A stretch of 37,700 bases of DNA. It comes from a virus. The translations under genes were made by a program, and so were the position numbers. Below are positions 960 to 30,739 of the stretch, one piece after another (position 1 is the first letter of the stretch; every line of letters starts with the position of its first letter). Location of the stretch: positions 1 through 37,700 of the IMG/VR virus record IMGVR_UViG_3300045975_000264; one strand, written 5' to 3'. The notes beneath the pieces are model-generated. The model was given only the letters and a program-made list of their open reading frames with translations. It ran no database searches and was not told the origin of the DNA.

Positions 960-3900
960 GTGGCAGAAGTCGGTTCAATAGAAGTTTCAGTATTAGCTGA
1001 TGTTGAAAACTTTGAACGTAACCTTGAACAGGCTTTACAAGAAGCAATTAAGTTTGAAAGTCGAGCTAAGCAGCTATTTGGCGGAGTAAGTGTCGCCGCC
1101 AAGTCTATGTCTAAAGATATGGAGCTGACTGCTCGGTCAACTAAACTATTTGTAAGTGAGATGGATAAAGCAGCTCAGCAAGTAGTTGCTGATCTTGCTA
1201 GAATGGAAGCGCAGCGTAAAAGTATGGCTGCTGCCTTCACGCAAAAATTAAATATGAGTCTTGGCCTTGGTGGGTCAGCTCCAGACATAGCTTCACGTGC
1301 TGCAGACATTCAAGCTTATGGAAATGCACTTGATGATCTTAGAGCTAAGTTTGTTCCACTCTTTGCCATTCAGAAACAATATCAAGTACATGTAGATGAG
1401 ATTAATGAAGCTCATCGTATAGGTGCTATTACTACTACAGAGCATACTCAGGCACTAGCACGAGCACAGCTTCAGTATGAAGCAAATGCCGTAGCCGCTA
1501 CTCGACTAGGAAATAATCTTAAAATTAATTCATTGCAGATGGGTAACATTGCCGCCCAATTCAATGATATTGCTGTTACGATGGCTATGGGTATGAACTC
1601 ATGGCAAATTGCTTTGCAGCAAGGCACACAGATCAATCAAGTTCTTTCTGGTATGGATTTTAAGACTGCTGGAAGAACATTAGCTGGCGCCTTTAAAGAT
1701 ATCATTAGCCCAGTTTCACTTGCCACTTTTGCTATCATTGGCTTTGGTGGCATGGCCATTCAATGGTTCTTGAATACTACAAAAGCGGCCAAGACTCTTG
1801 AAGAATCGTTAAAGAACCAACTTGAAATTCTTAAATCTATGGGTCCAGTTTATGAGGAACTTGGTAAACGAAGACAAGCTGCATTTCCAGAGTTAGAAGA
1901 TCCAACTGTTGGTGTTGGTAGACTTGCACGTGAACGTGCTCAAGCTGAAGAGTTAATGCGAGAATCAATTTTTGCACAGACTGCCAGACTCCGTCGTAGT
2001 GGCGGCGGAATTATGGATATGTTATTAGGAACTGGTTTATTAAGTGGTAGTACTGCATTTGGTCGAGGTATGATTCAGCAGTTAAGATTAAAACAGCAGT
2101 TTGAACCATTTGAAGATTTAATTAGAGATCTTGAGAATGGTACCATATCTGTTATAGAATTTCGGAAGGGTGTTAATGAGATTGGTAACACTAATCCGAT
2201 ATGGAGAAAAGCTGCGGATGAAATTTTAAGAGTTTCAGATTCTCTTGTAAAATTAAATCAGCAACTTAATCAAGTTGCTAAGGGTCTTCAAACTGTTCTT
2301 CAAGGTCCTGGAGTACTTCAGCGGCGCCTTGAACAAGTGCTTGGTGGGGCTAATTTATTTCAACGTATGCATCCTGAAAATCAATTTCCATTTACTCGAG
2401 GGCGTTCACCTGAACAAATACAAGTGGAACTTTTACAGCAACAGATTCAACTGGAAGCTCAACTTCAAGATATTCAGGCTCGTACAATAGTAGAGCGGGT
2501 AGCTGCTGCTCGAGCGTTAGAGGCAGCAAGAAATGTAGAAGGTGAAACTAAAGAAGAACGAGCTGTACGAGCAAATACAGCTGCCATCTTAGAACAGGCT
2601 CGTGCTGAGCGTGAACTTGCAGATGCTAAGCGTGATCGTGATAGATCAAGTAGAGAAGCTGTTGAAAATCTTCAGCTTGAACTAAATTTAGTTGGTAAAA
2701 CTGCCGCTGAACAGGCAGCTTTGCGTTTTGAATATGAACGTTTACTTCAGATCCAACATGAGATGGAGGATCAAGGTACATCTATTGATAGGTATCGCCA
2801 AGAGATTGAGTTGCTACAGCAAAGAACTGAAGCAATTAAGCAATATACTCAAGCACTTAATCGTGCGAAACTTCAATTTGATATTATGACTGAGCGTGAA
2901 GAAATCTTTATGAAGGAAAGTGAGCGAGAAATCCGTGGAAGAATTAGAGGCGCTGGTCTAGATCCTAATATGGAACCTGCCTTACAAGCTCAGCTTCGTT
3001 ATAATCAAGAACTTGAACGTACTCGTGATACGTGGCAGATGATCTTTGATGAGGTAAATAGTGGCGTCGATAGCATGGTTGATGCCCTATTTGAGGGTGG
3101 TCAAAGTTTTGAAGATACATTAAAACAGATTGGTCGTCAATTTGCTCGGTTGATGTTTGACCTTGCAGTAACTAATCCTATTAAGAATTGGCTTACCGGT
3201 AGTGAGTTTAAAACGATTGCGGATTTAGGTATCTTTGGGAAAGGTGCCTCGAGTGGTCGTGGTGGAGGCTTTGGCGGGGCACTTGGTAAGTTGTTTGGGG
3301 CAGATAAGATAGCTACTGCAACGATGCAGGTGCAAGCTGCTACAGTTATTGTGAATGGTGGTATTCCAGGTCTTCCTGGTGGAATCCCAGGGCTACCAGG
3401 TGCTGATGGTGGAGGGGGTGGTGGAGGTGGCGGGCCAACAGACATAGCCCAGAAGTATATTCAAAGCCGTATAGATTCTGCATTTGGTACTAAGCCTTCT
3501 TCAGCATCAACTAGTGGTCAAAATTATATTCAAACTCGTATTGATCAGGCATTCAGTAGCATAACTGGTGGAGGTGGTGGTGGCGGGGGTGGTGGTGGCA
3601 ACTGGCTAAATTATATAAATCAGAGCGCTACACGTAATTTACCTTTGAGCCCTAAGCTTGTTGAACAAATGAGTTTCCTTCAGGATATGGGCATTAGGAT
3701 GGATGTCTTTTCTGGAGGGCAACCAGCTTTTGGGGCTGGTCGTGTTGGTTCCCATCGACATGATCTTGGCGGAGCTGCTGATGTATTCTTTTCAAAGGGT
3801 GGTCGACGTCTTGATTGGGCGAATGCTGAAGATGTTCCAATTTTTCAAGAAATTGTTAGTCGAGCCAAGGCACGTGGCGTTACTGGATTTGGTGCTGGTG

Positions 3901-4700
3901 AAGGTTATATGCAACCAGGTAGTATGCACATAGGTGGTGGTCCTGAAGCTGTGTGGGGTCGTGGTGGTAGTGGGGCAAATGCACCTAGCTGGTTACGTGA
4001 TGCTGCATCAGGCCAAGGAGGTATGTCACAAGCTTCACAAGCCATTGATACTATGACAACTTCAGCAACGAATGCAGCTAGCTCTCTTGCTAAGGTTGGA
4101 TTGTCTGGCTTTGAAACTGTTAAAGGATTAACAGATGCTGCAGGTGGATTAACACAATTTGGAAATATACTTAAAAATTTCATGGCGCCGGGAGGTGGCT
4201 CAGAGGCTGGATGGTTCCAGAGTCTTATTAAAGGTGCAGGTTCACTATTTGGTGGCGGTCCAGCTGGAGCCGTGAGTTATATGCAGTCCATCTCACCTGC
4301 TGCAACTAGTGCCATTCTATCTGGTGCTGGTGGCTTGTATCAACAAGGTGGATTTACTGGTGGTAGTGATCGACGAGGAATTGCTGGTCTAGTGCACCAG
4401 AAAGAATTTGTCTTTGACGCTGACTCTACTCAAAGAATCGGGGTTCATAATCTTGAAAAGATTCGTCGAAGCAAGTTACCTGGAGCAGTTCCTACACCAC
4501 CTACTTGGTCTGCAAATGCTATGTGGAGATCTAATGGAGGCGGAGGTGGCGGAGGTCTAGGTGGATCTAACGCAACTAAAATCATTAACGTTTTTGATCC
4601 AACTGTAGTTGGTGATTATCTCTCAACTGATGCTGGAGAAAAGATGGTTATGAATGTTATGCGGCGTAATCCTAGTGGTAGAGGGGGTGCTAGTGGCTGA
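960..4700 (+). CDS. Tape measure protein with embedded M15-like peptidase domain
   Basis: At 1246 residues this is the longest gene in view, as expected for the protein that sets tail length. It starts at GTG; AAAGG at 946-950 is the likely ribosome site. N-terminal region: VGSIEVSVLADVENFE and helices, then the conserved block MGNIAAQFNDIAVTMAMGMN (from about residue 195), followed by a hydrophobic segment (about 252-272). Residues about 470-690 are long coiled coil. A lambda-type tape-measure C domain follows (FEDTLKQIGRQFARLMFDLA, about 720-740). Two poly-Gly linkers (about 817-826 and 869-880) with twin YIQxRIDxAF motifs precede an M15-like zinc peptidase module with H934-x6-D941 (HDLGGAAD) and a later MHIGGG (H990). 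The C-terminus has the usual GGFTGGS and HQKEFVFDADS motifs. Confidence 0.9.
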   Translation: MAEVGSIEVSVLADVENFERNLEQALQEAIKFESRAKQLFGGVSVAAKSMSKDMELTARSTKLFVSEMDKAAQQVVADLARMEAQRKSMAAAFTQKLNMSLGLGGSAPDIASRAADIQAYGNALDDLRAKFVPLFAIQKQYQVHVDEINEAHRIGAITTTEHTQALARAQLQYEANAVAATRLGNNLKINSLQMGNIAAQFNDIAVTMAMGMNSWQIALQQGTQINQVLSGMDFKTAGRTLAGAFKDIISPVSLATFAIIGFGGMAIQWFLNTTKAAKTLEESLKNQLEILKSMGPVYEELGKRRQAAFPELEDPTVGVGRLARERAQAEELMRESIFAQTARLRRSGGGIMDMLLGTGLLSGSTAFGRGMIQQLRLKQQFEPFEDLIRDLENGTISVIEFRKGVNEIGNTNPIWRKAADEILRVSDSLVKLNQQLNQVAKGLQTVLQGPGVLQRRLEQVLGGANLFQRMHPENQFPFTRGRSPEQIQVELLQQQIQLEAQLQDIQARTIVERVAAARALEAARNVEGETKEERAVRANTAAILEQARAERELADAKRDRDRSSREAVENLQLELNLVGKTAAEQAALRFEYERLLQIQHEMEDQGTSIDRYRQEIELLQQRTEAIKQYTQALNRAKLQFDIMTEREEIFMKESEREIRGRIRGAGLDPNMEPALQAQLRYNQELERTRDTWQMIFDEVNSGVDSMVDALFEGGQSFEDTLKQIGRQFARLMFDLAVTNPIKNWLTGSEFKTIADLGIFGKGASSGRGGGFGGALGKLFGADKIATATMQVQAATVIVNGGIPGLPGGIPGLPGADGGGGGGGGGPTDIAQKYIQSRIDSAFGTKPSSASTSGQNYIQTRIDQAFSSITGGGGGGGGGGGNWLNYINQSATRNLPLSPKLVEQMSFLQDMGIRMDVFSGGQPAFGAGRVGSHRHDLGGAADVFFSKGGRRLDWANAEDVPIFQEIVSRAKARGVTGFGAGEGYMQPGSMHIGGGPEAVWGRGGSGANAPSWLRDAASGQGGMSQASQAIDTMTTSATNAASSLAKVGLSGFETVKGLTDAAGGLTQFGNILKNFMAPGGGSEAGWFQSLIKGAGSLFGGGPAGAVSYMQSISPAATSAILSGAGGLYQQGGFTGGSDRRGIAGLVHQKEFVFDADSTQRIGVHNLEKIRRSKLPGAVPTPPTWSANAMWRSNGGGGGGGLGGSNATKIINVFDPTVVGDYLSTDAGEKMVMNVMRRNPSGRGGASG

Positions 4701-10287: not shown

Positions 10288-10950
10288 ATGGCTCTGAACA
10301 TTAACCCTGACACTACGTTGACTGCAGATGAGGAGGCTAAGCTTTATCGCTCCTTTTGGGCACGGACAAATACTTCGGTATTGTCAAGAACTACCTCACT
10401 TCCAGGTTCACCATCCGCGGGTGATATTTATATTGTCCCTACTGCAGATCCTGGTGGTGATAATATTGTCTTCTATTATGATGATGATTGGCACGCCTTA
10501 ACTCCTGATGAGGGTTGGACAGCCTATGTTATAGATGATGAAGAAAATGTCCAATTTGTAGGTGGTGAGTGGACAGTCTTTGCTGCAGGCGATGGTGGCG
10601 GTGGGGGTGGTGATACGATTGAGCTAGCCTTGTTTGTGAGTGGTAAGCCATCGGCAAGTGAAGTGGTCTTTCGTCACGATGCTACTGCAGCCTATACCTT
10701 ACCAGCTGGGCTCATTGGCTCTCAAGGGTCAGCAGGCATTGCGGCGACGGCCTCAACTGTATTAACTATCAAGAAGGATGCCTCGACAATTGGTACAGCC
10801 ACCTGGGCCATTGCAGGAACCGAACCTACCTTGGCCATGGCTTCTGACGCTGTTTTTGCTGTAGGTGAGGTCTTAAGTGTCACAGCGCCAACTCCACAAG
10901 ATGCCACTTTGGCAGACATCTCGCTCTCGTTTCTAGGAACATTGTCATGA
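10288..10950 (+). CDS. Tail protein with DUF2793-like N-terminal domain
   Basis: 220 residues, two bases after the tip gene stop. Residues about 38-100 read SLPGSPSAGDIYIVP, then FYYDDDWHALTPDEGWTAYV and FVGGEWTVF, the typical pattern of the DUF2793 domain found in tail-associated proteins of alphaproteobacterial phages and GTAs. A short poly-Gly linker (about 104-109) leads to a C-terminal beta domain, with FRHDATAAYTLPAGL and closing SFLGTLS, seen in many small tail receptor-binding subunits. It likely attaches to the tail tip as an adaptor or receptor-binding protein. Its stop overlaps the next start by four bases. Confidence 0.7.
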   Translation: MALNINPDTTLTADEEAKLYRSFWARTNTSVLSRTTSLPGSPSAGDIYIVPTADPGGDNIVFYYDDDWHALTPDEGWTAYVIDDEENVQFVGGEWTVFAAGDGGGGGGDTIELALFVSGKPSASEVVFRHDATAAYTLPAGLIGSQGSAGIAATASTVLTIKKDASTIGTATWAIAGTEPTLAMASDAVFAVGEVLSVTAPTPQDATLADISLSFLGTLS

Positions 10951-11942
10951 CAGTTTATTTTCAAGGCGCAGAGGTTGAGGACTTTATCACAGCTGGTACC
11001 GTCTTTAACCTTACAACAGCTGGTCACTTTACTACTGCCAATGCCCGTTGTGCTATGGGCATGACGATGGGAAGTGCTGAAGATACTCACTATCTTCAGG
11101 CAGTAATGTCTGCAACAGCAACTTCAGCTTGGTTTCATATGAAGATTAGGTGGGATGCTTTACCTGCACTTGCCTCAAGTAAGCATGCATTTAAGTTATA
11201 TTCAGGATCTACATTATTACTTACGGTTCAATTTGGCGGTACTCAGTGCAGAATGAATAAGTATACTGGATCATTTACTGTGTTATTAACCTCAGCAGCT
11301 TCTTCTTTGGCTGAAGATACTTTATATACTATGGATATTCAGGTTGTGATGGGAAATCCTGGAACTTTTCGGCTTTATTTAAATGGCACGGTAATTCTTG
11401 CAGATACTACCTTGGACCTTACCTGGGGTGGGGTAACAAGTTTCGATAGGATAAGGCTTCAATCAGCCTATACTACTGAAGGTGGTAGCTGGCGCAATTC
11501 ATTTGGTGAAGTTTTCATTGCTGACTTTAATACGATCAATTCAAGGTTAGTAACCATCGTACCTAATGGTGCTGGTACATATTCAGCCTGGACTGGGGCC
11601 TATACAGCAGTTGATGACATCACAGCCTCGTTAGATTATATGTCAAGTGGCACAGTTGATCAACGAGCCTCCTTTGGATTTTCTGATGCTTCAGCCTTGG
11701 CTGCAGGCGAGCGGATTGAGTGTGTTAAGGCTACTGCCTTAGCTCAACGTGACGCAGCTGGGCCGCAAAAGTTGAATATCTTCTCCACCATCTCATCAAC
11801 TGACTATGATACGACTGATCAAACATTGACAGTTGCCCCGGTAGCTGTTTATAAGATGTGGGATAATTCACCAGCAACCTCTACGTATTGGACCTTAAGT
11901 GAGCTGAATGACGCTGAATTTGGCTTTAGATCGAGGACCTAG
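10947..11942 (+). CDS. Putative tail decoration / receptor-binding protein, lectin-like, copy A
   Basis: 331 residues, predominantly beta, starting at ATG in an ATGA overlap. The pattern LYTMDIQVVMGNPGTFRLYL followed by a GTVIL strand resembles concanavalin A-like jelly-roll folds, and the protein lacks enzyme motifs. It is a tandem paralogue of the next gene: both begin MTVYFQG, share GNPGTxRxYLN and SGTVDQR blocks, and end EFGxRSRT. A role on the tail tip or side fibres is inferred from position after the tip and DUF2793 genes. Specific function unknown. Confidence 0.6.
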   Translation: MTVYFQGAEVEDFITAGTVFNLTTAGHFTTANARCAMGMTMGSAEDTHYLQAVMSATATSAWFHMKIRWDALPALASSKHAFKLYSGSTLLLTVQFGGTQCRMNKYTGSFTVLLTSAASSLAEDTLYTMDIQVVMGNPGTFRLYLNGTVILADTTLDLTWGGVTSFDRIRLQSAYTTEGGSWRNSFGEVFIADFNTINSRLVTIVPNGAGTYSAWTGAYTAVDDITASLDYMSSGTVDQRASFGFSDASALAAGERIECVKATALAQRDAAGPQKLNIFSTISSTDYDTTDQTLTVAPVAVYKMWDNSPATSTYWTLSELNDAEFGFRSRT

Positions 11943-11944
11943 CT

Positions 11945-12946
11945 ATGACAGTCTACTTTCAAGGTACAGAACTTCAAGATTTCGTGATAGGTGGTACATG
12001 TAATATGTACACGACTGCTGGTTACTTTACCGCAGCTAATTCTAGAGGTGCTGTTTATCCATCAGCTGCTTCCTTGACTGAAGATTTAAATTATTTTGAT
12101 GCCATATTTTCTTCAGTGGCTTCAAGCATCTGGTGCCATTTTGTATTCCGTTGTGATACTTTAACCAATAATGATAAGCTTTGGAAATTATACAGTGGCA
12201 CTACACAGCTCCTTAGTTTACAAAGTGTGATAGCCAATGATTCATTAAGGCTTCAAAAGTATGCAAGTTCCACATGGTCGACTATAGATAGTTCTGGCAG
12301 CTTTGTCTTTGCAAATAATGGATTGTACGTGGTTGATATTCAGGTCATCTTGGGAAATCCAGGAACTTGCCGAGTGTATCTTAATAATGTACCAGTTATT
12401 GCCAGCAATGCATATGATCTTTCCTGGCCTTCTGTTACTGATTTTAGTAAGATTCGTTTTCAAAAGACATATAACTCAGATTCTGCTACTAGACGTGGTC
12501 ACTTCTCAGAGGTTATTGTAGCTGATTGGTGTACCCTTCAATCTAAGGTAGTGGGCCGTGGTCCAGATGCCAATGGTGCCTACACTGCATGGACAGGTGC
12601 AGGTTATACGGCCATTGATGAGGTGATACTTAGCGCGGATTATATGACAAGTGGCACAGTTGATCAGAGAATTTCAGTCTCACTTGGTTCCTTTACTGCA
12701 CTAGGAGCTAATGAACGAATTGAAAATGTTAAAGCATCTGTTAATGCTTTCCGTGACGCTTCTGGCCCTCAAAGCTTGAATCTATTTACTAGAATAAGTA
12801 CCACTGACTATGATGGTAGTGATCAGGCTCTGACAGTACCTGCTGCACATTATAGTCAAAGTTGGGCAACTTCACCGGCCACTGCAACTTACTGGACACC
12901 TACAGAACTTGATGCCTCTGAATTTGGCGTGAGATCGAGGACGTAA
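11945..12946 (+). CDS. Putative tail decoration / receptor-binding protein, lectin-like, copy B
   Basis: 333 residues, the second of two adjacent paralogues; it matches copy A over its whole length with the same landmarks (MTVYFQG start, ILGNPGTCRVYLN, SGTVDQR, FGVRSRT end). The two copies have diverged most in residues 35-110, which may be the binding surface. The stop TAA (12944-12946) overlaps the next ATG by one base. A lectin-like beta-sandwich is inferred from strand pattern only. Confidence 0.6.
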   Translation: MTVYFQGTELQDFVIGGTCNMYTTAGYFTAANSRGAVYPSAASLTEDLNYFDAIFSSVASSIWCHFVFRCDTLTNNDKLWKLYSGTTQLLSLQSVIANDSLRLQKYASSTWSTIDSSGSFVFANNGLYVVDIQVILGNPGTCRVYLNNVPVIASNAYDLSWPSVTDFSKIRFQKTYNSDSATRRGHFSEVIVADWCTLQSKVVGRGPDANGAYTAWTGAGYTAIDEVILSADYMTSGTVDQRISVSLGSFTALGANERIENVKASVNAFRDASGPQSLNLFTRISTTDYDGSDQALTVPAAHYSQSWATSPATATYWTPTELDASEFGVRSRT

Positions 12947-16337: not shown

Positions 16338-17102
16338 ATGCCCTTCGATCGTAAAGTATTCTTCGACTCGGTCCGCGGTTCACTGTTCGGTGGCTCATTG
16401 ACCCAGAGTCAGGTTGATGGCATGGGCTTCAAGCTTGATCAATGGGCTGAGAGGTGGTACTCTAAGGATCCGCGTCACCTTGGCTACTCATTTGCCACCT
16501 CGTATCATGAAACCGGAGCCATGATGATTCCTGTCAGAGAAGGCTTCTGTAAAACTGACCAAGAGGCTCGTGAGTATGTTAGAAGACAAGGCTATCCATA
16601 TGCTAAGGTAGATCCAGTTACAGGTGAAGTTTATTATGGCCGTGGTGACATTCAAACGACATGGGCGGAAAATTATAAAAAGGCGGGTAAGGAGATAGGT
16701 ATCGGTGACGAACTTTATCAAAACCCAGAACTTATGCTTCAGACAAAAATCTCTGCTGACTGTCTCTTTCAAGGGATGATGGAAGGCTGGTATCGTGGTG
16801 ATAAGAAAGGCAGACAAACTCTTCCACGTTACTTTAATGAAACTGTTGATGATGCCTATAATGCACGAGAGATCGTTAATGGTGACAAGGCAAAGGTTCC
16901 ATCATGGTCAAATGGGGTTTCTATTGGCAAGTTAATTTCAATCTACCACAGTAAATTCCTTACAGCTATCGAGGCTGCCTGGACTGAGCCAACTGAACCA
17001 CCAGAAGAACCAACTGAACCTGATGTCGAGGTTCCAACCGTTACCATCACTACTACTGGAAAGGTAATCCTTATAGTTAATGGGGAGCAAATTGTAACGT
17101 GA
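16338..17102 (+). CDS. Endolysin, GH19 chitinase-like muramidase
   Basis: 254 residues, with GAGG at 16328-16331 before the ATG. The catalytic domain spans about 1-205. FATSYHETGAMMIPVREG places Glu58 at the position of the GH19 general acid, with Glu68 as possible partner, and YYGRGDIQTTWAENYKKAG is the characteristic GH19 substrate-cleft segment. A linker rich in Pro and Glu (EPTEPPEEPTEP) and a small C-terminal beta segment (VTITTTGKVILIVNG) follow. There is no signal peptide, so release into the periplasm needs a holin; candidates lie just downstream. It cleaves the glycan strands of peptidoglycan. The stop overlaps the next GTG in GTGA. Confidence 0.85.
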   Translation: MPFDRKVFFDSVRGSLFGGSLTQSQVDGMGFKLDQWAERWYSKDPRHLGYSFATSYHETGAMMIPVREGFCKTDQEAREYVRRQGYPYAKVDPVTGEVYYGRGDIQTTWAENYKKAGKEIGIGDELYQNPELMLQTKISADCLFQGMMEGWYRGDKKGRQTLPRYFNETVDDAYNAREIVNGDKAKVPSWSNGVSIGKLISIYHSKFLTAIEAAWTEPTEPPEEPTEPDVEVPTVTITTTGKVILIVNGEQIVT

Positions 17103-17587
17103 GTGAGCCACAGCAACCACAAAATGGTCGGTTGCTGACATGGCTTAATGCAGTTAAGGGTCTAACGTTTACTAATGTGTTGGTAATTGGTATGTTAGTT
17201 GTCATAGCCATCCCTACCTATACATTATGGAAGGCTCTTGGCGATGATAAACTATTAGATAGGTTCTTATCTACTTATGAAGAGTTAAGTAGTCAGAATA
17301 GTGGATGTACAGTACGACATATGCAAGCACGCGGCGGTCCGGACATTTGGGGCATTAGTTCAGGCTTTGCCTATCAAGGCGAGGGTCGATGGTTAGTATC
17401 AGTGGCACTTCCCGCCGAGCCTAGCATCGAGGAGATCATGAGTTATTGTGAAAGCCTCAAACTCATCGCTGATAAGATGCTTGACCGTTCTAGTGATGGT
17501 AGTAACAATGATGCTACTATCAACTCAGGCGAAAACGATCAAATTCACAGCAGACCAATGCAGAGTCCTCCGACAGACGGGCGTTGA
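17099..17587 (+). CDS. Membrane-anchored lysis protein (i-spanin or class III holin candidate)
   Basis: 162 residues starting at GTG in a GTGA overlap with the endolysin stop. One transmembrane helix (about residues 24-46, FTNVLVIGMLVVIAIPTYTL) follows a short polar N-terminus; the rest is soluble, with Cys in NSGCTV and in SYCESL, and a polar C-terminal tail. A single N-terminal helix with a periplasmic domain fits an inner-membrane spanin subunit, although no long coiled coil is obvious. A single-span holin is the alternative. The last 140 bases also encode the next gene in another frame. Confidence 0.55.
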   Translation: MSEPQQPQNGRLLTWLNAVKGLTFTNVLVIGMLVVIAIPTYTLWKALGDDKLLDRFLSTYEELSSQNSGCTVRHMQARGGPDIWGISSGFAYQGEGRWLVSVALPAEPSIEEIMSYCESLKLIADKMLDRSSDGSNNDATINSGENDQIHSRPMQSPPTDGR

Positions 17588-17651
17588 TGTAACTGGTCTT
17601 GGGTGCCCTCCACCGCCCCCACCCAAAAAGAAAAAGGTAAAACAACAGTGA
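17448..17651 (+). CDS. Nested small secreted protein, Pro/Lys-tailed, paralogue of the collagen-like lipoprotein
   Basis: 67 residues from GTG 17448; the first two thirds lie inside the preceding gene in another frame. The N-terminus is a classic Sec signal (SSLIRC, then hydrophobic LTVLVMVVTMMLLS, then a TQA cleavage site). The mature part KFTADQCRVLRQTGVDVTGL, then GC, six Pro and a KKKK tail, aligns with the next protein's EFSDEQCRFLSARGNNVF segment: xFxxxQCRxLxxxGxxV, then Cys and Pro. That shared block is good evidence that this frame is real. The embedded layout recalls Rz/Rz1 spanin genes. No strong ribosome site is seen (GGAG lies 14 bases upstream), so coupling is likely. Function unknown. 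Confidence 0.6.
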   Translation: MKASNSSLIRCLTVLVMVVTMMLLSTQAKTIKFTADQCRVLRQTGVDVTGLGCPPPPPPKKKKVKQQ

Positions 17652-18109
17652 GGTTTACGATTGCTGTTTGTATATTCCTTACTGGATGTAATACATATAA
17701 CCCTTATGTTGAGTTTAGTGATGAACAATGCCGCTTTTTATCTGCACGTGGTAATAACGTCTTTTTAATTTGTCGTAGACCACCAGGCTCAACATCACAA
17801 CAAGCTCAACAGTCAGGTACAAGCTCTGGAAATAACGGAAGTGATGGAAGTAATGGAGGACAAGGGTCGCCAGGATCACCAGGTGCGCCTGGTGCTCCAG
17901 GTACACCCGGATCGCCAGGTACACCCGGTGCGCCGGGTTCGCCTGGTACTCCAGGTACGCCAGGTACCCCAGGACCGCCCGGTCCGCCCGGTCCGCCAGG
18001 ACCTCCGGGGCCTCCTGGTCCGAGTGGTGGCGAGGATCCTAACAAAGGTCATGGCAACAATCCAGGGCATAATGACCCGGATAACCCAGGAAAAGGGAAG
18101 AATAAGTGA
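17648..18109 (+). CDS. Collagen-like outer-membrane lipoprotein (o-spanin candidate)
   Basis: I choose GTG 17648, which overlaps the previous stop as GTGA, over an upstream in-frame ATG at 17603, because the protein then starts MRFTIAVCIFLTGC: a short lipoprotein signal with lipobox LTGC (Cys14), very like Rz1-type o-spanins. A QCR-containing module (about residues 22-45), shared with the preceding gene, follows. From about residue 62 to 125 come continuous Gly-X-Y triplets (GSPGSPGAPGAPGTPG, later PGPPGPPGPPG), which would form a collagen triple helix. The tail is charged (GEDPNKGHGNN). Total 153 residues. A trimeric rod anchored in the outer membrane facing the periplasm, possibly linking to the inner membrane in lysis, is inference. 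Confidence 0.65.
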   Translation: MRFTIAVCIFLTGCNTYNPYVEFSDEQCRFLSARGNNVFLICRRPPGSTSQQAQQSGTSSGNNGSDGSNGGQGSPGSPGAPGAPGTPGSPGTPGAPGSPGTPGTPGTPGPPGPPGPPGPPGPPGPSGGEDPNKGHGNNPGHNDPDNPGKGKNK

Positions 18110-18277
18110 GTGACTGTGACAATCTTACTCTTAATGGTGATTGTATCAGTCCTATTAGTAGCAACTGTGATAATGATAGCAACCGAAGAAGTAACCATAG
18201 GGGTAGCTTTAATTATCGGAGTCTTAATTGTAGCTCTAGTTTTCTTGATTCTTATTACCATAATATCATCAATCTAA
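18110..18277 (+). CDS. Two-span small holin candidate
   Basis: A 55-residue frame starting at GTG directly after the lipoprotein stop. It is almost entirely hydrophobic: helix 1 about VTILLLMVIVSVLLVATV, a short polar turn TEEVT, helix 2 about IGVALIIGVLIVALVFLIL, then SSI and stop. Two helices with a charged turn is the usual form of class II holins, and a holin is required by the signal-less endolysin four genes upstream. A second GTG at 18116 could be the start. The alternative frame over the same DNA (18106-18318) gives a Cys/Asn/Ser-rich protein with no recognisable features. AGGG at 18094-18097 may be the ribosome site. Confidence 0.65.
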   Translation: MTVTILLLMVIVSVLLVATVIMIATEEVTIGVALIIGVLIVALVFLILITIISSI

Positions 18278-22920: not shown

Positions 22921-23346
22921 TTAACTGACCAAGACTTGTCTTAACCTTGCCCAGTAAAAAGGCTTGGACAAAATGTCTATGGCAGCTAGGTCCGAGATGT
23001 TAAGTCGAAGCCACTTTTGATACTGCTCACGTGGCGCCTTTAAGATCTCATCAATAGGATAGATTGCGATGTCGCCATTCTTAAGTTGAACTATGACAAA
23101 GAGTCGTGCCCCAACACGCTGATATTTTCGTGCCCAGGGAAATTGAAACCTTTCAAAGAGTATCTTACCATTATGTTCTATCTTAGTTTCAATCCAACCC
23201 ATTCGGCCTTCAATGCAGTAAAAGATATCAAACATGCCACCTTCAACAATATTCTCAACACGACTACACGCACCCCACTCTTCTATATGAGTCCGTAATC
23301 GAGCGTAAAGTATGGTCTCATCCACGATTACCGCCCCATGAGTCAT
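22921..23346 (-). CDS. Putative PD-(D/E)xK nuclease (VRR-NUC or resolvase-like)
   Basis: 141 residues from ATG 23346, overlapping the 3' end of the polymerase gene; a start further upstream would lie deep inside that gene, and GTG 23325 is an alternative. The core reads ENIVEGGMFDIFYCIEGRMG then WIETKIEHNG: an Asp followed by a Glu-x-Lys pair on the next strand, the metal-binding signature of small restriction-fold nucleases. Later strands (ARLFVIVQLKNGDIAIY) fit the fold. Position next to DNA polymerase suggests processing of replication or recombination intermediates. Substrate unknown. Confidence 0.6.
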   Translation of the reverse strand: MTHGAVIVDETILYARLRTHIEEWGACSRVENIVEGGMFDIFYCIEGRMGWIETKIEHNGKILFERFQFPWARKYQRVGARLFVIVQLKNGDIAIYPIDEILKAPREQYQKWLRLNISDLAAIDILSKPFYWARLRQVLVS

Positions 23347-25279
23347 AGATATCTTGGCCCACATAAAATGGAATCTCGGTGCGCATCTGTGTAGCCATAA
23401 CATATCTCATCTCTTTGGCAACAAAGTCGTCAGGCCCACTCGAGGCATTTAACTCGTCATGGACCGCCATCAATGGGGTGATGCCTCGGCGATCCAACTC
23501 AACGATGCATTCCTTACACTGGTCGCCAGAGCTTCCTTGAATGATGGCATTCAAACCTTTATGTTTAAATGCTCGCTGGTACTTATTACCCCACAACCTG
23601 ATAGCCTCTTCCTCAGAATGTACCATATAGTTGACACCATAGCGTTTCTTAGTTTCATAGTCAGATGGCTCGAATGACTTAAACCTCCGCTTTCGCCCTG
23701 TTATGGTTCTAACAAAACCATTCTGCTCAATTCTATCCTGTACCATCTTAATGAGTTGGGAAACAAAGGGAACACCCGTATGATATGCTTTAAGGATCTC
23801 GTCGCCTTTATTGACATCAACGCCAAGTCGAACTGCCATCTTATTACGTTGCATTCCATAGAGGGAACCGAGTGACAGGTCCTTTGCCTGAGGCCGAGGC
23901 AAATCCATCTGTGCCCTAGACTTGACAAGATCTATCGTTAACTTATGGTAATCGGTCTCAGGAGCCTCCTTAAACTTTTGCATAAAGATCTCGGAGACTG
24001 GAAGCTTCAACTTATAGGCAAACTCAATTACCCAACGAGGCTCTTGACTTGCCCAATCATTCTTGATGAATTTCTCGCCAAGCTCACCCACGAATCCCTT
24101 CCGGATCTCAGGTCCATAGATAGGGTCACGTGCTGGAATCTGTTGTAGATTTAACTTAGTTGAGGACATGCGGCCAGAACGCGTGCCAAGAGAATCACCC
24201 TCATCGGTCTCACTTCTTAGAGCATGCCATTGTGGATGAACTCGACCATTGACATGTGACTGTAGAATATTGTCTACGAAGTCCTTTTTCATCTTGGCTA
24301 CAACTCGAAGATGCCTGATCGTCTCACAAAGTTCATCACCCTTTTGCTTGACGAGCCAGGCATTATCCACGGAGAGTTCCCCGCGAACTGTCCGGATATT
24401 CCTATAACCTTTTGCCTCGAGTGCTTGACCAATCTCTTTACTCGAGTTGAAGTTGATATGTCGACCAAGGAGCTTATCCATCTTTTGCTGAAGCGTATCT
24501 TGCCTAGCTTTATATTCTTTCGATAAACCCTGAAAATAGTCGAGGTCAACTCTAACACCGTTCCTTCGCATCTTCCATAGAACCGGGAGGAGCTCTGACT
24601 CAAGCTTCCATACCCGCTCAAGCTTCTCTTCATAGATCTTGTTCTCTTGCTGTAGAAAAATCTCTATTGGCTTTTGTGCATCGGCTTCGGCATATTCTGC
24701 CACGAACCTGGCGGGAATATAATGCATACCTCTTTTCGGCCCCACACCATAGACCGCAGCAGCTTCCAATAGACCGGCTTCAACCTTGCCTGTGCCAAGA
24801 TAATGTTGGGAGAGGCTTTCAAGCGAATACCCATCTTTACGTTCCTCGTCAAGAAGAGGTTCGGCCGTTTGAATGTCACAGATCGTGCCATTTATTTCTG
24901 TAATCCCTAATGACCACAAGGCCTCAAGATCATAAATAAGATTAGCGCCACACTTTTGATTGTGAGCCTTTAATTGATCCTTAACATAACGTATTACTAT
25001 GTCAGGATCATAATTGTCTTCGACGTGCCGGATTGGTAGATAGATGGCCTCATCAACTGAAGCAAGTGAGATGCCGCAGACAAATGCATCCCCACGAAGA
25101 TAGCCTGGACCCTTTGCCATTAGATACGGATCGTGAGCCTCGGTATCAAGGCCAATGATTTTTTGCTGACGAAAATCAGGCCAATCGGTAGGTGAGACTG
25201 GTTTCCAGCTTGATTTCGGAACAAAAAGAGGGAGCTGGCCAGCTTGCGATATGGTGCGACTTTTGCCATAGTAGGTCAT
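23318..25279 (-). CDS. Family A DNA polymerase with 3'-5' exonuclease
   Basis: 653 residues. Exonuclease motifs: LDTEAHDP (Asp45, Glu47), NLIYDLEAL (Asp117) and YAEAD (Tyr196, Asp200). Polymerase motifs: A at IKNDWASQEPRW (Asp408), B at RPQAKDLSLGSLYG (Arg462, Lys466, Leu470, Tyr474), C at VHDE (His607, Asp608, Glu609). No 5'-nuclease domain is present, as usual in phage versions. Position 470 corresponds to E. coli Pol I Phe762 and is Leu here. This is the replicative polymerase of the phage. Its start overlaps the HNH gene stop by four bases, so translation is coupled within the operon. Confidence 0.95.
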   Translation of the reverse strand: MTYYGKSRTISQAGQLPLFVPKSSWKPVSPTDWPDFRQQKIIGLDTEAHDPYLMAKGPGYLRGDAFVCGISLASVDEAIYLPIRHVEDNYDPDIVIRYVKDQLKAHNQKCGANLIYDLEALWSLGITEINGTICDIQTAEPLLDEERKDGYSLESLSQHYLGTGKVEAGLLEAAAVYGVGPKRGMHYIPARFVAEYAEADAQKPIEIFLQQENKIYEEKLERVWKLESELLPVLWKMRRNGVRVDLDYFQGLSKEYKARQDTLQQKMDKLLGRHINFNSSKEIGQALEAKGYRNIRTVRGELSVDNAWLVKQKGDELCETIRHLRVVAKMKKDFVDNILQSHVNGRVHPQWHALRSETDEGDSLGTRSGRMSSTKLNLQQIPARDPIYGPEIRKGFVGELGEKFIKNDWASQEPRWVIEFAYKLKLPVSEIFMQKFKEAPETDYHKLTIDLVKSRAQMDLPRPQAKDLSLGSLYGMQRNKMAVRLGVDVNKGDEILKAYHTGVPFVSQLIKMVQDRIEQNGFVRTITGRKRRFKSFEPSDYETKKRYGVNYMVHSEEEAIRLWGNKYQRAFKHKGLNAIIQGSSGDQCKECIVELDRRGITPLMAVHDELNASSGPDDFVAKEMRYVMATQMRTEIPFYVGQDIYDSWGGNRG

Positions 25280-25899
25280 TTATTGTAACCTTGATGTGGT
25301 AATGTGGTCAAGGCCTTTTCAGGGGACCACTTATAAAATTTTAATCTGCGAGCAATACACTCCATGGATAAACCAGTTTCCTTAGACCATTCTGATAAAT
25401 GTTGAGTTCTTCCAAAGGCTGTAATAAGATGGGCATTTTTCTTGTTCTTGTTACTTTCTGAAAGCGTAGCCCATCGAAGATTACCTTTAAGGTATCCTTT
25501 ACTATTATTAATACGATCAAGTACAGAATATTCAGGAGCAGGTCCCATATAATCATAGAACTTATCAAAGCCATCCTTTTCTAACCATTCAGGCTCTACC
25601 TCCATGTTTTCGTAAATTGTTCCTTGATGACGAGCCTTCCAAGAAGGCATAGTTTGTTGAGTTCGAGCAATCATTGCAGAGAATGCAACATATTCTTTGA
25701 TTACTTTTCCATTGATAGTTCTTGGTATGTCTTTTTTCTGAACACAACTTCTACAGGCTTTTGTGCGAGTTATATTATAATGCCACATACGCCTAACTTG
25801 GTTACAACCTAAACATTTAACTAAATAATAGTGCTGTCCTAAATAGGAGATAATTTCATGGCTATTATAAATTGAACCTGGCTTATAGATCATAACCAT
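25276..25899 (-). CDS. HNH homing endonuclease
   Basis: About 207 residues from ATG 25899 (25893 also possible), overlapping the dCMP deaminase stop by 17 bases and the polymerase start by 4. A treble-clef-type Cys cluster (CLGCNQVRRMWH, then CRSC) precedes an HNH-like core with YSVLDRINNSKGYLKGNLRW and the following Asn/Lys run (SNKNKKN). The C-terminus (TQHLSEWSKETGLSMECIAR) looks like a helix-turn-helix DNA-binding module of the NUMOD type. Such free-standing endonucleases commonly sit beside DNA polymerase genes and spread by cutting phages that lack them. Confidence 0.8.
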   Translation of the reverse strand: MVMIYKPGSIYNSHEIISYLGQHYYLVKCLGCNQVRRMWHYNITRTKACRSCVQKKDIPRTINGKVIKEYVAFSAMIARTQQTMPSWKARHQGTIYENMEVEPEWLEKDGFDKFYDYMGPAPEYSVLDRINNSKGYLKGNLRWATLSESNKNKKNAHLITAFGRTQHLSEWSKETGLSMECIARRLKFYKWSPEKALTTLPHQGYNK

Positions 25900-26329
25900 A
25901 ATGCTGCCAAATCCTTCCAGTCTTTGCCCAAAGTTCCTTGCTTTGTGTATTGTGGGCATATTCTTCAGTGAATACAATTCGTTTTGTTGAGGTATTCATA
26001 AGTAACTTTGTACAATGGATACAAGGTGAGTGAGTTATGTAGCAGGTGTCAATTTCATAGACATCTCGACACTGTAGAAGTGAATTCTGCTCACTATGGA
26101 TAGAGTGGCATTTATCTAAGCCAGTGCCTGAAGGTAAGTTGGCTCCTGGACATGGAAAGTCGGTACAGTGCGGCAATCCAGCAGCAACTCCACTAAAGCC
26201 TGTAGCCAAGACATGTTTACGATGATTGACCAAAACACAACCTACCTGTCTCCTTATACAGGTGCCTCGAGTTGCAACAAGGGCGGCCATTCTGAGAAAA
26301 TATTCATCAGCACTTATTCGATCATTCAT
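25883..26329 (-). CDS. Deoxycytidylate deaminase
   Basis: 148 residues with the zinc-dependent deaminase signature: HSEQNSL (His78, catalytic Glu80) and SPCIHC (Cys103, Cys106). Further Cys/His (CTDFPCPG, CHSIH) give a second metal site as in T4-type dCMP deaminases. The enzyme converts dCMP to dUMP, feeding thymidylate synthesis. The start overlaps the upstream stop by four bases (ATGA). Lying next to the thymidylate-synthase-family gene, it would divert dCMP to dTMP while its neighbour competes for dCMP. Function is well supported by motifs. Confidence 0.9.
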   Translation of the reverse strand: MNDRISADEYFLRMAALVATRGTCIRRQVGCVLVNHRKHVLATGFSGVAAGLPHCTDFPCPGANLPSGTGLDKCHSIHSEQNSLLQCRDVYEIDTCYITHSPCIHCTKLLMNTSTKRIVFTEEYAHNTQSKELWAKTGRIWQHYGYDL

Positions 26330-27093
26330 ATGTCAAGCATCCCATTACCATTCCTTGCGATTCTCCATAGGTAACTTACAAACTCGTCCTCATCCTCGAA
26401 CTTATATGGGTCGAAGTATGGGCCTTCTTTACTCTTATCTAGAATAGCCTCTTTGGCAGCTTCCCAATTCTTTTCATATAGATGCTGAGATCCTGCTTGC
26501 AAGGTTAAGTCACCTAGTTTAAGTTTAATATTGTAAACATTACGAAGTCTCAGCATAATCATTCCAGTCAACATTGTAAAATTACAGATATCATAGGGCC
26601 AGCCCAACCACAAGTCCGAGGATCTCATGGTATCAATGCAATGTATTCTGCCTTCACGTATAAACCACTGTACAGAAATTGTACATGGCACATCTTTAGT
26701 TTGACCCGGATTCTGACGCCATATGGTTAGAATTGCTTGGCGTGTATCTTGATCATTGGCAAGTGTCTTAGCAATGTATGCAAGTTGATCAATGACCCGC
26801 GGGCCATACGCTCCAAAGAAGGTCACACTGTCATCGCTAAACTTCTCGATGTCCTTGGAGAATGCCTTAATCGTCGAGACTCGGTTATCTCCAGACAAGA
26901 TCCATGCCGCCTCGGCAGCCATAAACTTGTAGCCTAAATTTCTTACCTCATTCTGGATTACTGGCCATGTCATAGCAATTGAAGATTGAAAGGCCAGAAT
27001 CTCTTTAGTTTTCATACCACGAGGTGAAGTAGTTTCCCCATCCATTAAGACGTGAACTAGATTATCTCTCCAAGTCGTTGTAGCACTATCCAT
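26326..27093 (-). CDS. Thymidylate-synthase-family enzyme, predicted dCMP hydroxymethylase
   Basis: 255 residues with the family core: GYKFMAAEAAWILSGDN (Glu61), FFGAYGPRV, catalytic Cys137 in DVPCTISVQW, phosphate-binding TMRSSDLWLGWPYDI and the QHLYEKN segment. In thymidylate synthases the motif LGxPFN carries an Asn (E. coli Asn177) that selects dUMP. Here it reads LGWPYD, with Asp168 at that site, as in T4 dCMP hydroxymethylase. The predicted reaction is dCMP plus methylene-tetrahydrofolate to 5-hydroxymethyl-dCMP. A dCMP methylase or ordinary thymidylate synthase remain possible. Gene overlaps of 8 and 4 bases tie it to the kinase and the deaminase. Confidence 0.7.
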   Translation of the reverse strand: MDSATTTWRDNLVHVLMDGETTSPRGMKTKEILAFQSSIAMTWPVIQNEVRNLGYKFMAAEAAWILSGDNRVSTIKAFSKDIEKFSDDSVTFFGAYGPRVIDQLAYIAKTLANDQDTRQAILTIWRQNPGQTKDVPCTISVQWFIREGRIHCIDTMRSSDLWLGWPYDICNFTMLTGMIMLRLRNVYNIKLKLGDLTLQAGSQHLYEKNWEAAKEAILDKSKEGPYFDPYKFEDEDEFVSYLWRIARNGNGMLDI

Positions 27094-28081
27094 CTTGGGA
27101 CCTCAGCCAGTTGAATGTGGTTCTTATGTCCTCTGCACCTGTGTACTGTTTAAATCTTCGATAGTATTGTGGATGCCGTAAATAGGCATGGACATTAATC
27201 TTTTCCTTATTCAGGAAATTAACTGCGTTATCACCAAGTGAAATTACTTTGATATTGTGACTATATTCGCTGTCCATGAATTCTTTGATCATGTACTCAT
27301 TGCCAGAGCCATCCGGTAAGGTTGCATTCATAGAAATGACTTCATATTCTGGCACATGCGACAACTCTAAGGCTTCAGCAAGCCATAGACTAGAGTTTCC
27401 ATAATCGAACCAAGGCCAAACCTCTCGGCGAGTCTTAGGTTTAAGACGATCACCCACTAACAGATACTCTGCTTGGGCTGCATTACCAGTAAAGTTCATA
27501 AAGTCAATTCTAAAGGCAGGTTTCCATTGTGTGTATCGATAGTCTAAGGCAATTTCAGCAATATCTTGAACTACTGTAGGTAAGTCATGCCCTTGTTTCA
27601 TAAAGTCATAAAGGTATGTACCAAATCTACGAGAGAAATACTGGTCCCAAAGCTGATTAAAGTAATCATAGACCTTCTCCATGCCCTCATCAAACATCTC
27701 AGTTCGTCTATCTTTAAGTTCATTGTAATGTTTAAGATAGGCATCCTTAGCTTTTGGAAAGCAAAGTATATAAACGACACTATGTTTTAAAGCAGGCTTT
27801 TCAAGTAAACGACCCATTAGTGGCCAAGGAGTTCCGTTACGATACGCCTTGGCGTAACAAAGTTCACTTGGCCACCAACGGTCAATGATGACGGGACTTT
27901 TCTTAGACCAATTCAACGCAGCGTAGATAGTCGCGGTATGATAGTCAAACATCTTGGTCTTCCACCTATATGTTAGGTGGATGTAACGTGCCTCGAAGTA
28001 TTCGACTAGCACCTTGGCTAAGGTTGATTTACCAGTCCCGTCAGGACCATCAAGTACTATGATGGGAAACGCATTTATCAT
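27086..28081 (-). CDS. dNMP kinase fused to a uracil-DNA-glycosylase-like domain
   Basis: 331 residues. Residues 1-180 are a thymidylate-kinase-like P-loop kinase: IIVLDGPDGTGKST, VIIDRWW for the DR motif and a lid-like KDRRTEMFDEGMEK. Residues about 204-331 follow the uracil glycosylase superfamily outline: LLVGDRLKPK, PWFDYGNSSLWLAEAL, YEVISMNATLPDG, IKVISLGDNAVNFL and LRHPQYYRRF (compare GEAPG, lG..A and HPs motifs of families 4 and 5). Neither end is truncated. The kinase would phosphorylate a normal or modified dNMP; the second domain might bind or edit a base. The fold match of domain 2 is inference. It overlaps both neighbours (4 and 8 bases). Confidence 0.7.
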   Translation of the reverse strand: MINAFPIIVLDGPDGTGKSTLAKVLVEYFEARYIHLTYRWKTKMFDYHTATIYAALNWSKKSPVIIDRWWPSELCYAKAYRNGTPWPLMGRLLEKPALKHSVVYILCFPKAKDAYLKHYNELKDRRTEMFDEGMEKVYDYFNQLWDQYFSRRFGTYLYDFMKQGHDLPTVVQDIAEIALDYRYTQWKPAFRIDFMNFTGNAAQAEYLLVGDRLKPKTRREVWPWFDYGNSSLWLAEALELSHVPEYEVISMNATLPDGSGNEYMIKEFMDSEYSHNIKVISLGDNAVNFLNKEKINVHAYLRHPQYYRRFKQYTGAEDIRTTFNWLRSQDG

Positions 28082-28413
28082 TGGGTTATCTTCAGCATCT
28101 CTTCCTTGATCTCATTCTTGATGGTACGTTCAGACTTCTTAATCTCTATCTCGAAGAGGTCAAGAATATCCTTGACTTTTGAATTGTTCGGGTATCCTAT
28201 GCCGTTGATTAGCCACTCTACATTTACACGCAGGGCACGAGCAACTAAGATCCTTTCATTTGGCGACCGAATAGATGATGAGTGGATCAATTTCCAGTTG
28301 TTGATTGTGCTAACGTTGATACCTGTCTCGGCACTCAAGGAAGTGTCGGTGTACCCTGCCATAATCATGGCTAACCGAAACCTCAGGCAGAAACAATTAA
28401 GCAGCTGTGTCAT
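28078..28413 (-). CDS. XRE-type helix-turn-helix regulator
   Basis: 111 residues with a strong AGGAGG six bases before the ATG. Residues about 12-75 form an HTH_3-type domain: LAMIMAGYTDTSLSAETGIN, then VSTINNWK as recognition helix, and ERILVARALRVNVEWLINGI, the usual end of Cro/C1-like domains. The tail (about 85-111) is a charged helix that may mediate dimerisation. It lies inside the nucleotide-metabolism operon rather than beside a divergent promoter, so it may be an autoregulator of the early operon rather than an immunity repressor. It overlaps the MazG-like gene by 17 bases. Confidence 0.75.
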   Translation of the reverse strand: MTQLLNCFCLRFRLAMIMAGYTDTSLSAETGINVSTINNWKLIHSSSIRSPNERILVARALRVNVEWLINGIGYPNNSKVKDILDLFEIEIKKSERTIKNEIKEEMLKITQ

Positions 28414-28840
28414 CTGAGCCTCCTACTAGATCCTTGAGTGATGCTGGTGCCCAATTCTTGGGCTTTATAACATCATATGTACTGCCACGTAAAGAATCTT
28501 CCTTACGCTTAGCCCTTACCTTTTGCATATTAGCTTCATGCACCCGGTCAAATCCCACATCGAACTGGAATCCCTGCATGTATGCTGTTCCAAGGGCAAC
28601 ATATACCAGGTCAATGAGGGCATCGAACTGCTTCTCTAGATCCTGGTTAAGTACAGCTTCACAGTACTCGTTCAACTCCTCCTGCATAAATTTACAACGA
28701 AACTGAGAAAGTTCTTTAGTAAGATGACGCGGTGGGCCATCATATGTCAACTCAAACTTGGTATGAAATTCTCTGATAGACTCGAAATTCGTTAGCTTCT
28801 CAAGCTTTGTTATTCTACGCTCTAGTCCTTGATGGGTCAT
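28397..28840 (-). CDS. MazG-like all-alpha NTP pyrophosphohydrolase
   Basis: 147 residues. The helical core has REFHTKFE, then KFMQEELNEYCEA (metal ligands Glu54, Glu55, Glu58) and KQFDALIDLVYVALG (Asp73, Asp77), closing with FDRVHEANMQKVRA: the EExxE plus DxxxD pattern of this superfamily, which includes MazG, HisE and T4 gp56 dCTPase. It cleaves a nucleoside triphosphate to the monophosphate and pyrophosphate. In this operon a dCTP-removing role would both supply dCMP and keep normal cytosine out of DNA, but MazG-type removal of ppGpp or damaged nucleotides is also possible. It overlaps the upstream methyltransferase gene by 26 bases. Confidence 0.8.
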   Translation of the reverse strand: MTHQGLERRITKLEKLTNFESIREFHTKFELTYDGPPRHLTKELSQFRCKFMQEELNEYCEAVLNQDLEKQFDALIDLVYVALGTAYMQGFQFDVGFDRVHEANMQKVRAKRKEDSLRGSTYDVIKPKNWAPASLKDLVGGSDDTAA

Positions 28841-29844: not shown

Positions 29845-30057
29845 TCAACTTGCCCTAATGAGAGCCTCGAGTATTCCTGCAGCAGCTTCATATTTCAGCT
29901 TAGCTTTATGTTCAGCCTGCCAATAGTTTGGAGGCAAGTTCTCCTTATTCAGGAAGGCATAAGAGATAAGCTTTTCAAGATCTTCCTTAGCCCGCTCCCA
30001 CTCCTGCAGGTTCTTGTTGACTACTAGCTGAGTCGCCATAATCAACGTTGTTGTCAT
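29845..30057 (-). CDS. Small helical protein of unknown function
   Basis: 70 residues if started at ATG 30057; upstream Met codons at 30105 and 30099, and a downstream one at 30039, are in frame, and none has a strong ribosome site, so the start is uncertain. The protein is helical: NLQEWERAKEDLEKLISYAF, then PPNYWQAEHKAKLKYEAAAG and a hydrophobic ILEALIRAS end. It overlaps the 3' end of the exonuclease gene by about 70 bases. Nothing identifies a function; it may be an accessory subunit of the exonuclease. Confidence 0.5.
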   Translation of the reverse strand: MTTTLIMATQLVVNKNLQEWERAKEDLEKLISYAFLNKENLPPNYWQAEHKAKLKYEAAAGILEALIRAS

Positions 30058-30739
30058 TAAGTTTTCTATTCCGCCAGTATCTTGCTGTGTAGATGACATT
30101 TTCATCCCAGTTGCTCTTTGTTACCATCCAATCTAAATAGCTCAAAGGCACGTTTTGCCATAACTTACCGTTATGTTCACCGAAAGTTACCTTTCTTAAC
30201 TTGACCGGTTCGTTAGACACGGCGAACATACCAGGATAAGGATCCTCCTTCGTGGATCGCTCAAGAATCTTGGCAAAGATGTTCGCGGTAATTTCTGCAT
30301 CGTAAAGGGCACGATGGGGAATTATTCCGTGTGTGGGGTCAGGTATGCCAAGCCAGTATCTGAGGGCTTGGTTGCTGTAGCTTGGAGCCTCTGGCCACAC
30401 GACATTAGCAAGCTTCCAAGTACAAAGCCAACTGACATCGCCAAGATCAAGGTGTACACGGTCGAACTGTGCATTATGCGCCACAACATACTCGAAGTTC
30501 TCCGCAAGCAGTGGTTGTAAGGCGGCATCAATATGGGGCGCATCCTTAACATGATGATCACAGATATGATGTATAGCACTTGCCATACATGGGATCTCTA
30601 TGCTAGGATTCACTAAGGTGGAATAGACTTTAACGATCCGCGGGCCTTCCATTAAGATGCCAGCAACCTCAACCACACGATCATTCGGGGTTAATCCTGT
30701 CGTTTCACAGTCAACAATAAGGACATTACGCTCTATCAT
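29987..30739 (-). CDS. DEDDh 3'-5' exonuclease with C-terminal DUF3820-like module
   Basis: 250 residues. Exonuclease motifs: Exo I VDCETTGL (Asp10, Glu12), Exo II AHNAQFDRVHL (Asp93), Exo III HRALYDAE (His142, Asp147), as in DNA polymerase III epsilon and RNase T families. Residues about 183-223 (VTFGEHNGKLWQNVPLSYLD, ending ENVIYTARY) resemble the DUF3820 module found alone or fused to such exonucleases. It probably degrades or proofreads DNA ends or RNA in support of replication. GGAG six bases before ATG is the ribosome site; a CTCC just upstream could pair with it. Confidence 0.85.
   Translation of the reverse strand: MIERNVLIVDCETTGLTPNDRVVEVAGILMEGPRIVKVYSTLVNPSIEIPCMASAIHHICDHHVKDAPHIDAALQPLLAENFEYVVAHNAQFDRVHLDLGDVSWLCTWKLANVVWPEAPSYSNQALRYWLGIPDPTHGIIPHRALYDAEITANIFAKILERSTKEDPYPGMFAVSNEPVKLRKVTFGEHNGKLWQNVPLSYLDWMVTKSNWDENVIYTARYWRNRKLNDNNVDYGDSASSQQEPAGVGAG

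Follow-up and report, generated by a model that had tools for sequence, protein, structure and literature searches.

The lysis region of an uncultured phage holds three overlapping genes, here called A, B and C, whose products probably burst the outer membrane of the host. On balance, we favour the reading that A and C form a two-component spanin of an undescribed family, to which B adds a third component that is secreted but carries no lipid. The DNA analysed (the window) is a whole virus record of 37,700 bases, and its A-B-C block apparently belongs to a widespread, undescribed family of uncultured phages.

Reading rightwards, the tail genes are followed by an endolysin gene, A, B, C and D, and then by genes on the opposite strand, the first of which encodes a helicase. 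The endolysin (16338-17102, + strand) is of the GH19/chitinase-like type (phrog_181 endolysin, E = 1.5e-22) and is 48% identical to a GH19 domain protein of a Ruegeria phage. Gene A (17099-17587, +) encodes 162 aa with a predicted N-terminal transmembrane helix and periplasmic alpha/beta domain, and is a candidate i-spanin (or class-III holin). Gene B (17448-17651, +) shares 4 nt (GTGA) with gene C (17648-18109, +); a start at 17448 gives it an overlap of 140 nt with the 3' end of A. The GTG start of C at 17648 sits at the stop of B and is preferred to the listed start at 17603. Gene D (18110-18277, +) encodes 55 aa with two predicted transmembrane segments and is a candidate holin. The preliminary description of this DNA had assigned B and C to a lysis cassette, and the endolysin directly upstream agrees with this; it had also called B a nested frame, whereas B is not nested in C, and overlaps the 3' end of A and 4 nt of C. 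Elsewhere in the window, two adjacent genes of the tail region (10947-11942 and 11945-12946; 331 and 333 aa) both match phrog_6368, which marks them as a tandem duplication. The DNA polymerase appears to be split, with the phrog_17 polymerase part (23318-25279, -) and a phrog_192 exonuclease subunit (29987-30739, -) about 4.7 kb apart, and a nucleotide-metabolism block (25883-28840, -) encodes a dCMP deaminase, a thymidylate synthase, a kinase-like protein and a MazG-like pyrophosphohydrolase.

Counting the window, 28 loci were compared: 25 that remained after the removal of identical A cores, and three found through B alone that are near-copies of one another. The endolysin led to the first relative, L002 (75% endolysin identity), which has a clear A-B-C set, and the others were reached by alignment-based searches. 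A, B and C are all present in 20 loci and A with one module protein in seven, while L015 retains only a degenerate remnant. For most loci the search started from A or the endolysin, and the presence of A in them is by construction; since the three contigs reached through B also carry A, C and an endolysin, the module (described below) and A travel together in this sample. An endolysin lies on the fetched piece in 15/28 loci (12/25 plus 3/3) and a small ORF with two transmembrane (2-TM) segments follows within 1.9 kb of C in 20 of the 27 assessable loci, so that some cassettes are incomplete in the stretch that was read. Relatives that keep the lipoprotein and lack the 17448 frame, which the preliminary description had said would count against its proposal, do exist in 3 of 28 loci (L011, L012 and L040), and B is thus usual but not obligatory; in L011 and L012, C starts at the stop of A. 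Two-gene and one-gene states are scattered over a weakly supported tree of A (7 changes against a shuffled mean of 7.1), which favours neither gain nor loss of the second module gene. In L077 (5102-5863) about 760 bases separate the stop of B from the C module, compared with 42-105 in most loci that have all three genes. The 2-TM gene after C in L012 (1160-1318) is unlike the IPxPEP-type 2-TM genes found elsewhere, and presumably resembles the bacterial DUF3309 small membrane proteins. Related endolysins occur in L003-L006 and in isolated Ruegeria, Rhizobium, Paracoccus and MedPE phages, and no match to the A profile was found in these loci or in the pieces of those phages.

Gene B is a 67-codon frame with an N-terminal hydrophobic stretch, the sequence FTADQCRVLRQTGVDV and a Cys-Pro6-Lys4 tail. 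Its GTG start at 17448 has an AGGAG 13 nt before it and is not certain, as in-frame starts also exist at 17481, 17493 and 17496. Nine loci have the B module clear of A; compared in pairs, they differ by 0.27/0.20/0.56 at codon positions 1/2/3, and codons with a single difference include 212 synonymous and 38 non-synonymous changes. This bias and the synonymous excess establish B as a real coding sequence under purifying selection. In the 20 loci with B, its module is wholly within A in six, partly so in five and outside in nine, and strict nesting was therefore set aside as a functional theme. A loose pattern finds no lipobox in B in 16 of 17 cases, with L025 being ambiguous.

The module common to B and C has the form F-x3-Q-C-R-x-L-x5-[DN]-x4-C, with the Gln-Cys codons at 17556-17561 (+) in B and 17726-17731 (+) in C. 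Both cysteines are invariant (38/38), and AlphaFold models the module as one short helix. Alignment of the B and C profiles (E = 3.6e-15) indicates that the two proteins are paralogous and that their shared module is not due to chance, and on this point the preliminary description, which took both for real and related genes, is borne out. A six-frame scan of 937,857 bases with the module profile found the cassette position only, plus strays at E = 0.025 and E = 1.3; ten of these loci had trained the profile, and the same contig is often represented by several overlapping loci. A second match in the L014 contig (E = 4.6e-4) falls in a frame that lacks a signal sequence and was taken as chance. 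When 34 modules were scored by leave-one-out, own-kind scores were 47-70 and 40-63 bits and cross-scores were at most 32; judged by these scores, the B and C modules are two distinct, specialized subfamilies. For the modules of one-gene loci the B profile is the better in 6/7, including all four without a lipobox, and the C profile in L040; those of L011, L041 and L045 score low with both. Such single modules may be fusions of a B front with a C tail, or undivided ancestors.

Gene C reads MRFTIAVCIFLTGC, then FSDEQCRFLSARGNNV, then a series of Gly-X-Y triplets and a basic C-terminus. Its lipobox is LTGC with Asn at +2, and in a regular-expression scan every other lipobox ORF of the record was antisense to late or early genes. 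A lipobox lipoprotein occurs in 23/28 loci, namely all 20 with A, B and C and three of the seven with one module protein; it is absent in four, and L015 has no clear module protein. The strict lipobox consensus is matched in 21/23 and Asp is never at +2 (0/23); the outer membrane is the predicted location, from these sorting signals. In the window 22 Gly-X-Y triplets are in register, the last 18 unbroken and without Gly in the X position, and they are encoded by tandem repeats of 9, 27 and 45 bases (17863-18001, +), which fit growth of the run by repeat slippage. The tail of the window is thus collagen-like by its uninterrupted run of 18, a trait that is not conserved among the relatives. Tails are 74-183 aa long and contain 40-61% Gly+Pro in 24/24 cases, but runs of at least eight triplets occur in just five (window 18, L002 18, L014 16, L025 14 and L019 8), and the others are Gly-rich or carry Asp-Pro-Pro repeats. 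Since the Gly+Pro richness is general and the long runs are not, the conserved property, as far as tail sequences reveal it, is an extended low-complexity spacer and not a collagen helix, and the collagen-like tail is one version of this fast-changing spacer. The collagen-like lipoprotein of the preliminary description is therefore an accurate account of the window but of few relatives, and the triple-helical rod it put forward as the working principle is not supported. The C tail of L023 (862-1494) consists of Gly/Asn-rich repeats that are neither collagen-like nor Pro-rich. Close upstream of A-B-C in L017 are tail-fibre-like genes with long collagen-like runs (874-2088 and 3558-4676), and genes of this type are a possible source of the Gly-X-Y tails.

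Gene A has 28 distinct sequences, the window counted, and Cys70 and Cys117 are invariant in 12/12 aligned sequences. One N-terminal membrane segment is predicted by a hydrophobicity scan and by helix 24-48 of the AlphaFold model, which is of moderate confidence (pLDDT 73.7, pTM 0.46) and includes further helices at 11-20, 50-56 and 110-133, a small sheet, and no long coiled coil. Foldseek gave no match for A at E ≤ 0.001 in the solved-structure and viral libraries. In the fold comparison with VIA-align, LptE and other chains tied at the highest score (Z = 5.3, 72 residues, rmsd 3.5), and the similarity was judged to be a common arrangement; T of phage T4 is not among the matches listed. Sequence comparison with solved structures returned membrane helices for the most part, those of pilin-like proteins among them (best E = 0.058). 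Pfam and PHROGs offered no useful family for A or B: the 'Rz-like spanin' PHROG was hit by A in 2/12 members at E = 0.17 at best, and by C of L024 at E = 0.072, both below a useful threshold. We consider A the likely partner of the module proteins.

The signature of a two-component spanin, as given in the part of Kongari 2018 (PMC6139136) consulted, is a type-II inner-membrane protein together with an outer-membrane lipoprotein, encoded by overlapping genes near an endolysin. The same part of that article reports that 507 of 528 two-component spanins have at least one periplasmic Cys, that summed periplasmic lengths are 62-300 aa, that many spanin families are singletons, and that Gly-Ser insertions are tolerated in the linkers of Rz and Rz1. 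In the window A overlaps B and B overlaps C, the endolysin is directly upstream, and a predicted type-II inner-membrane protein adjoins a predicted outer-membrane lipoprotein; it is on this combination that the spanin reading is based. Two invariant Cys are found in A and two in the module, and the summed periplasmic lengths of A and C, roughly estimated at 192-321 aa, fall at the upper end of the published range or slightly exceed it. The preliminary description had suggested an unusual spanin from the lipoprotein, and this part is supported, with A supplying the likely inner-membrane partner that it had missed. Like lambda Rz/Rz1, and the overlapped class represented by P2 LysB/LysC, the cassette thus combines overlapping lysis genes, periplasmic Cys and a Pro-rich outer partner. 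It differs from these systems in that no sequence or fold match to them was found, in the compact alpha/beta domain of A in place of coiled coils, and in the long Gly/Pro tail of C, the extra secreted paralogue B and four lineages without a lipobox.

As a spanin, the A-B-C block would carry out the outer-membrane step of lysis. A would be held in the inner membrane by its N-terminal helix, with its compact domain in the periplasm, and C would be tethered to the outer membrane by its lipid, with the module adjoining the lipid and the long Gly/Pro-rich tail reaching as an extended spacer through the peptidoglycan. Together, A and C would bridge both membranes and draw them towards each other after cleavage of the wall by the endolysin. 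The spacer would then reside in the outer-membrane partner, in place of a long coiled coil on the inner-membrane side, within an overlapped gene layout, and it would tolerate change in the way that the Rz and Rz1 linkers accept Gly-Ser insertions. B, exported by an ordinary Sec signal, would bind the same partner through its paralogous module, and might act as a soluble subunit or as a competitor that sets when or how C engages. A more tentative extension of the spanin reading, which we regard as possible but somewhat doubtful, is that the soluble paralogue and the lipoprotein arose from one module, share A, and time or tune the bridging by their ratio, and that in several lineages one non-lipidated module protein with a long tail suffices, which would make dispensable the lipid anchor regarded as essential for spanins.

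The strict form of the spanin reading is weakened by four loci (L014, L041, L044 and L045) whose only module protein carries a Sec signal but lacks a lipobox. Pattern-based scans found no other convincing lipoprotein in the 47-kb contig of L014, in 19.9 kb of L041, in 4.8 kb of L044, or in the L045-type contig (record L046), of whose 20.3 kb the first 20.0 were covered, all of these being contigs of unknown completeness. One lipobox candidate in the L014 contig (L092:584-1189, minus strand) was dismissed because it runs antisense to another open frame. Unless the phages of these loci do without the lipid, the spanin reading fails for the family.

Loci without a lipoprotein pose no problem for the main rival, in which A is a class-III holin like T of phage T4, B an RI-like antiholin and C a periplasmic antiholin tied to the outer membrane, the module serving to delay hole formation. 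A shares the topology of T, in which a two-Cys periplasmic domain comes after an N-terminal helix, and is preceded by tail-fibre genes, like t in T4; B is small and secreted like RI, which, going by the title of a 2021 paper, reportedly has a cleavable signal peptide. The seven assessable loci in which no D-like ORF was found also mean that some cassettes have no other obvious holin. Against this, the profiles of A and T (28 and 9 sequences, hhalign) align over the membrane segment only, with a probability of 1.3%, which does not support A as a T homologue, and the module gives no alignment with the single RI sequence used. The lipoprotein paralogue sets the cassette apart from T/RI, the lipidation and long tail of C would go unexplained in most loci, as would D where it is present, and we judge a holin and antiholin set to be unlikely.

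Disruptins of the phiKT type are small cationic lysis-associated proteins, and B, being small, cationic and lysis-associated, might similarly damage the outer membrane alone, with C as a separate spanin-like or structural lipoprotein. The tails of B are basic (+3 to +8) in 17/17 examined, three later-found loci not being counted. Its most conserved part, however, is not the tail but the two-Cys module in common with C; a signal peptide and a lipoprotein paralogue are further differences from disruptins, B is missing in 8/28 loci, and this explanation seems quite improbable. Equally improbable is a role outside lysis, with C as a virion-linked or superinfection-blocking lipoprotein that borrowed its Gly-X-Y tail from tail fibres: the cassette does follow tail-fibre genes, some of them collagen-like (L017), and the PHROG matches of C are collagen-like tail fibres, but these cover mainly the low-complexity repeat whereas conservation in C centres on the module, and C carries an export and lipidation signal and neighbours an endolysin and small 2-TM genes.

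A search for the module in other phage lysis cassettes, as the preliminary description had advised, is answered by the 28 loci of uncultured phages; searches of isolated phages, of PHROGs and of prokaryote genomes yielded no relatives. The window DNA has no match in phage records, and direct searches of viral contigs with A and the N-terminus of C of the window gave no match. By tblastn, neither A from four loci (window, L016, L019 and L041) nor B found a relative in 50,697 phage records, and searches of 84,980 prokaryote genomes with A or B also gave none. No description of such an A-B-C cassette was met in the portions of the spanin and disruptin literature consulted. A 2025 survey of lytic proteins in IMG/VR (PMC12596118) lists 261,425 spanins and, according to the part consulted, removed o-spanin candidates that lack a lipid box; A-B-C sequences may be contained in it unremarked.

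Spanins are diverse and are often missed because their genes overlap. What appears to be new here is a third, secreted component, along with natural variants that have no lipid anchor. The family amounts to an evolutionary experiment on whether lipid, length, linker chemistry or a paired module is essential for disruption of the outer membrane.
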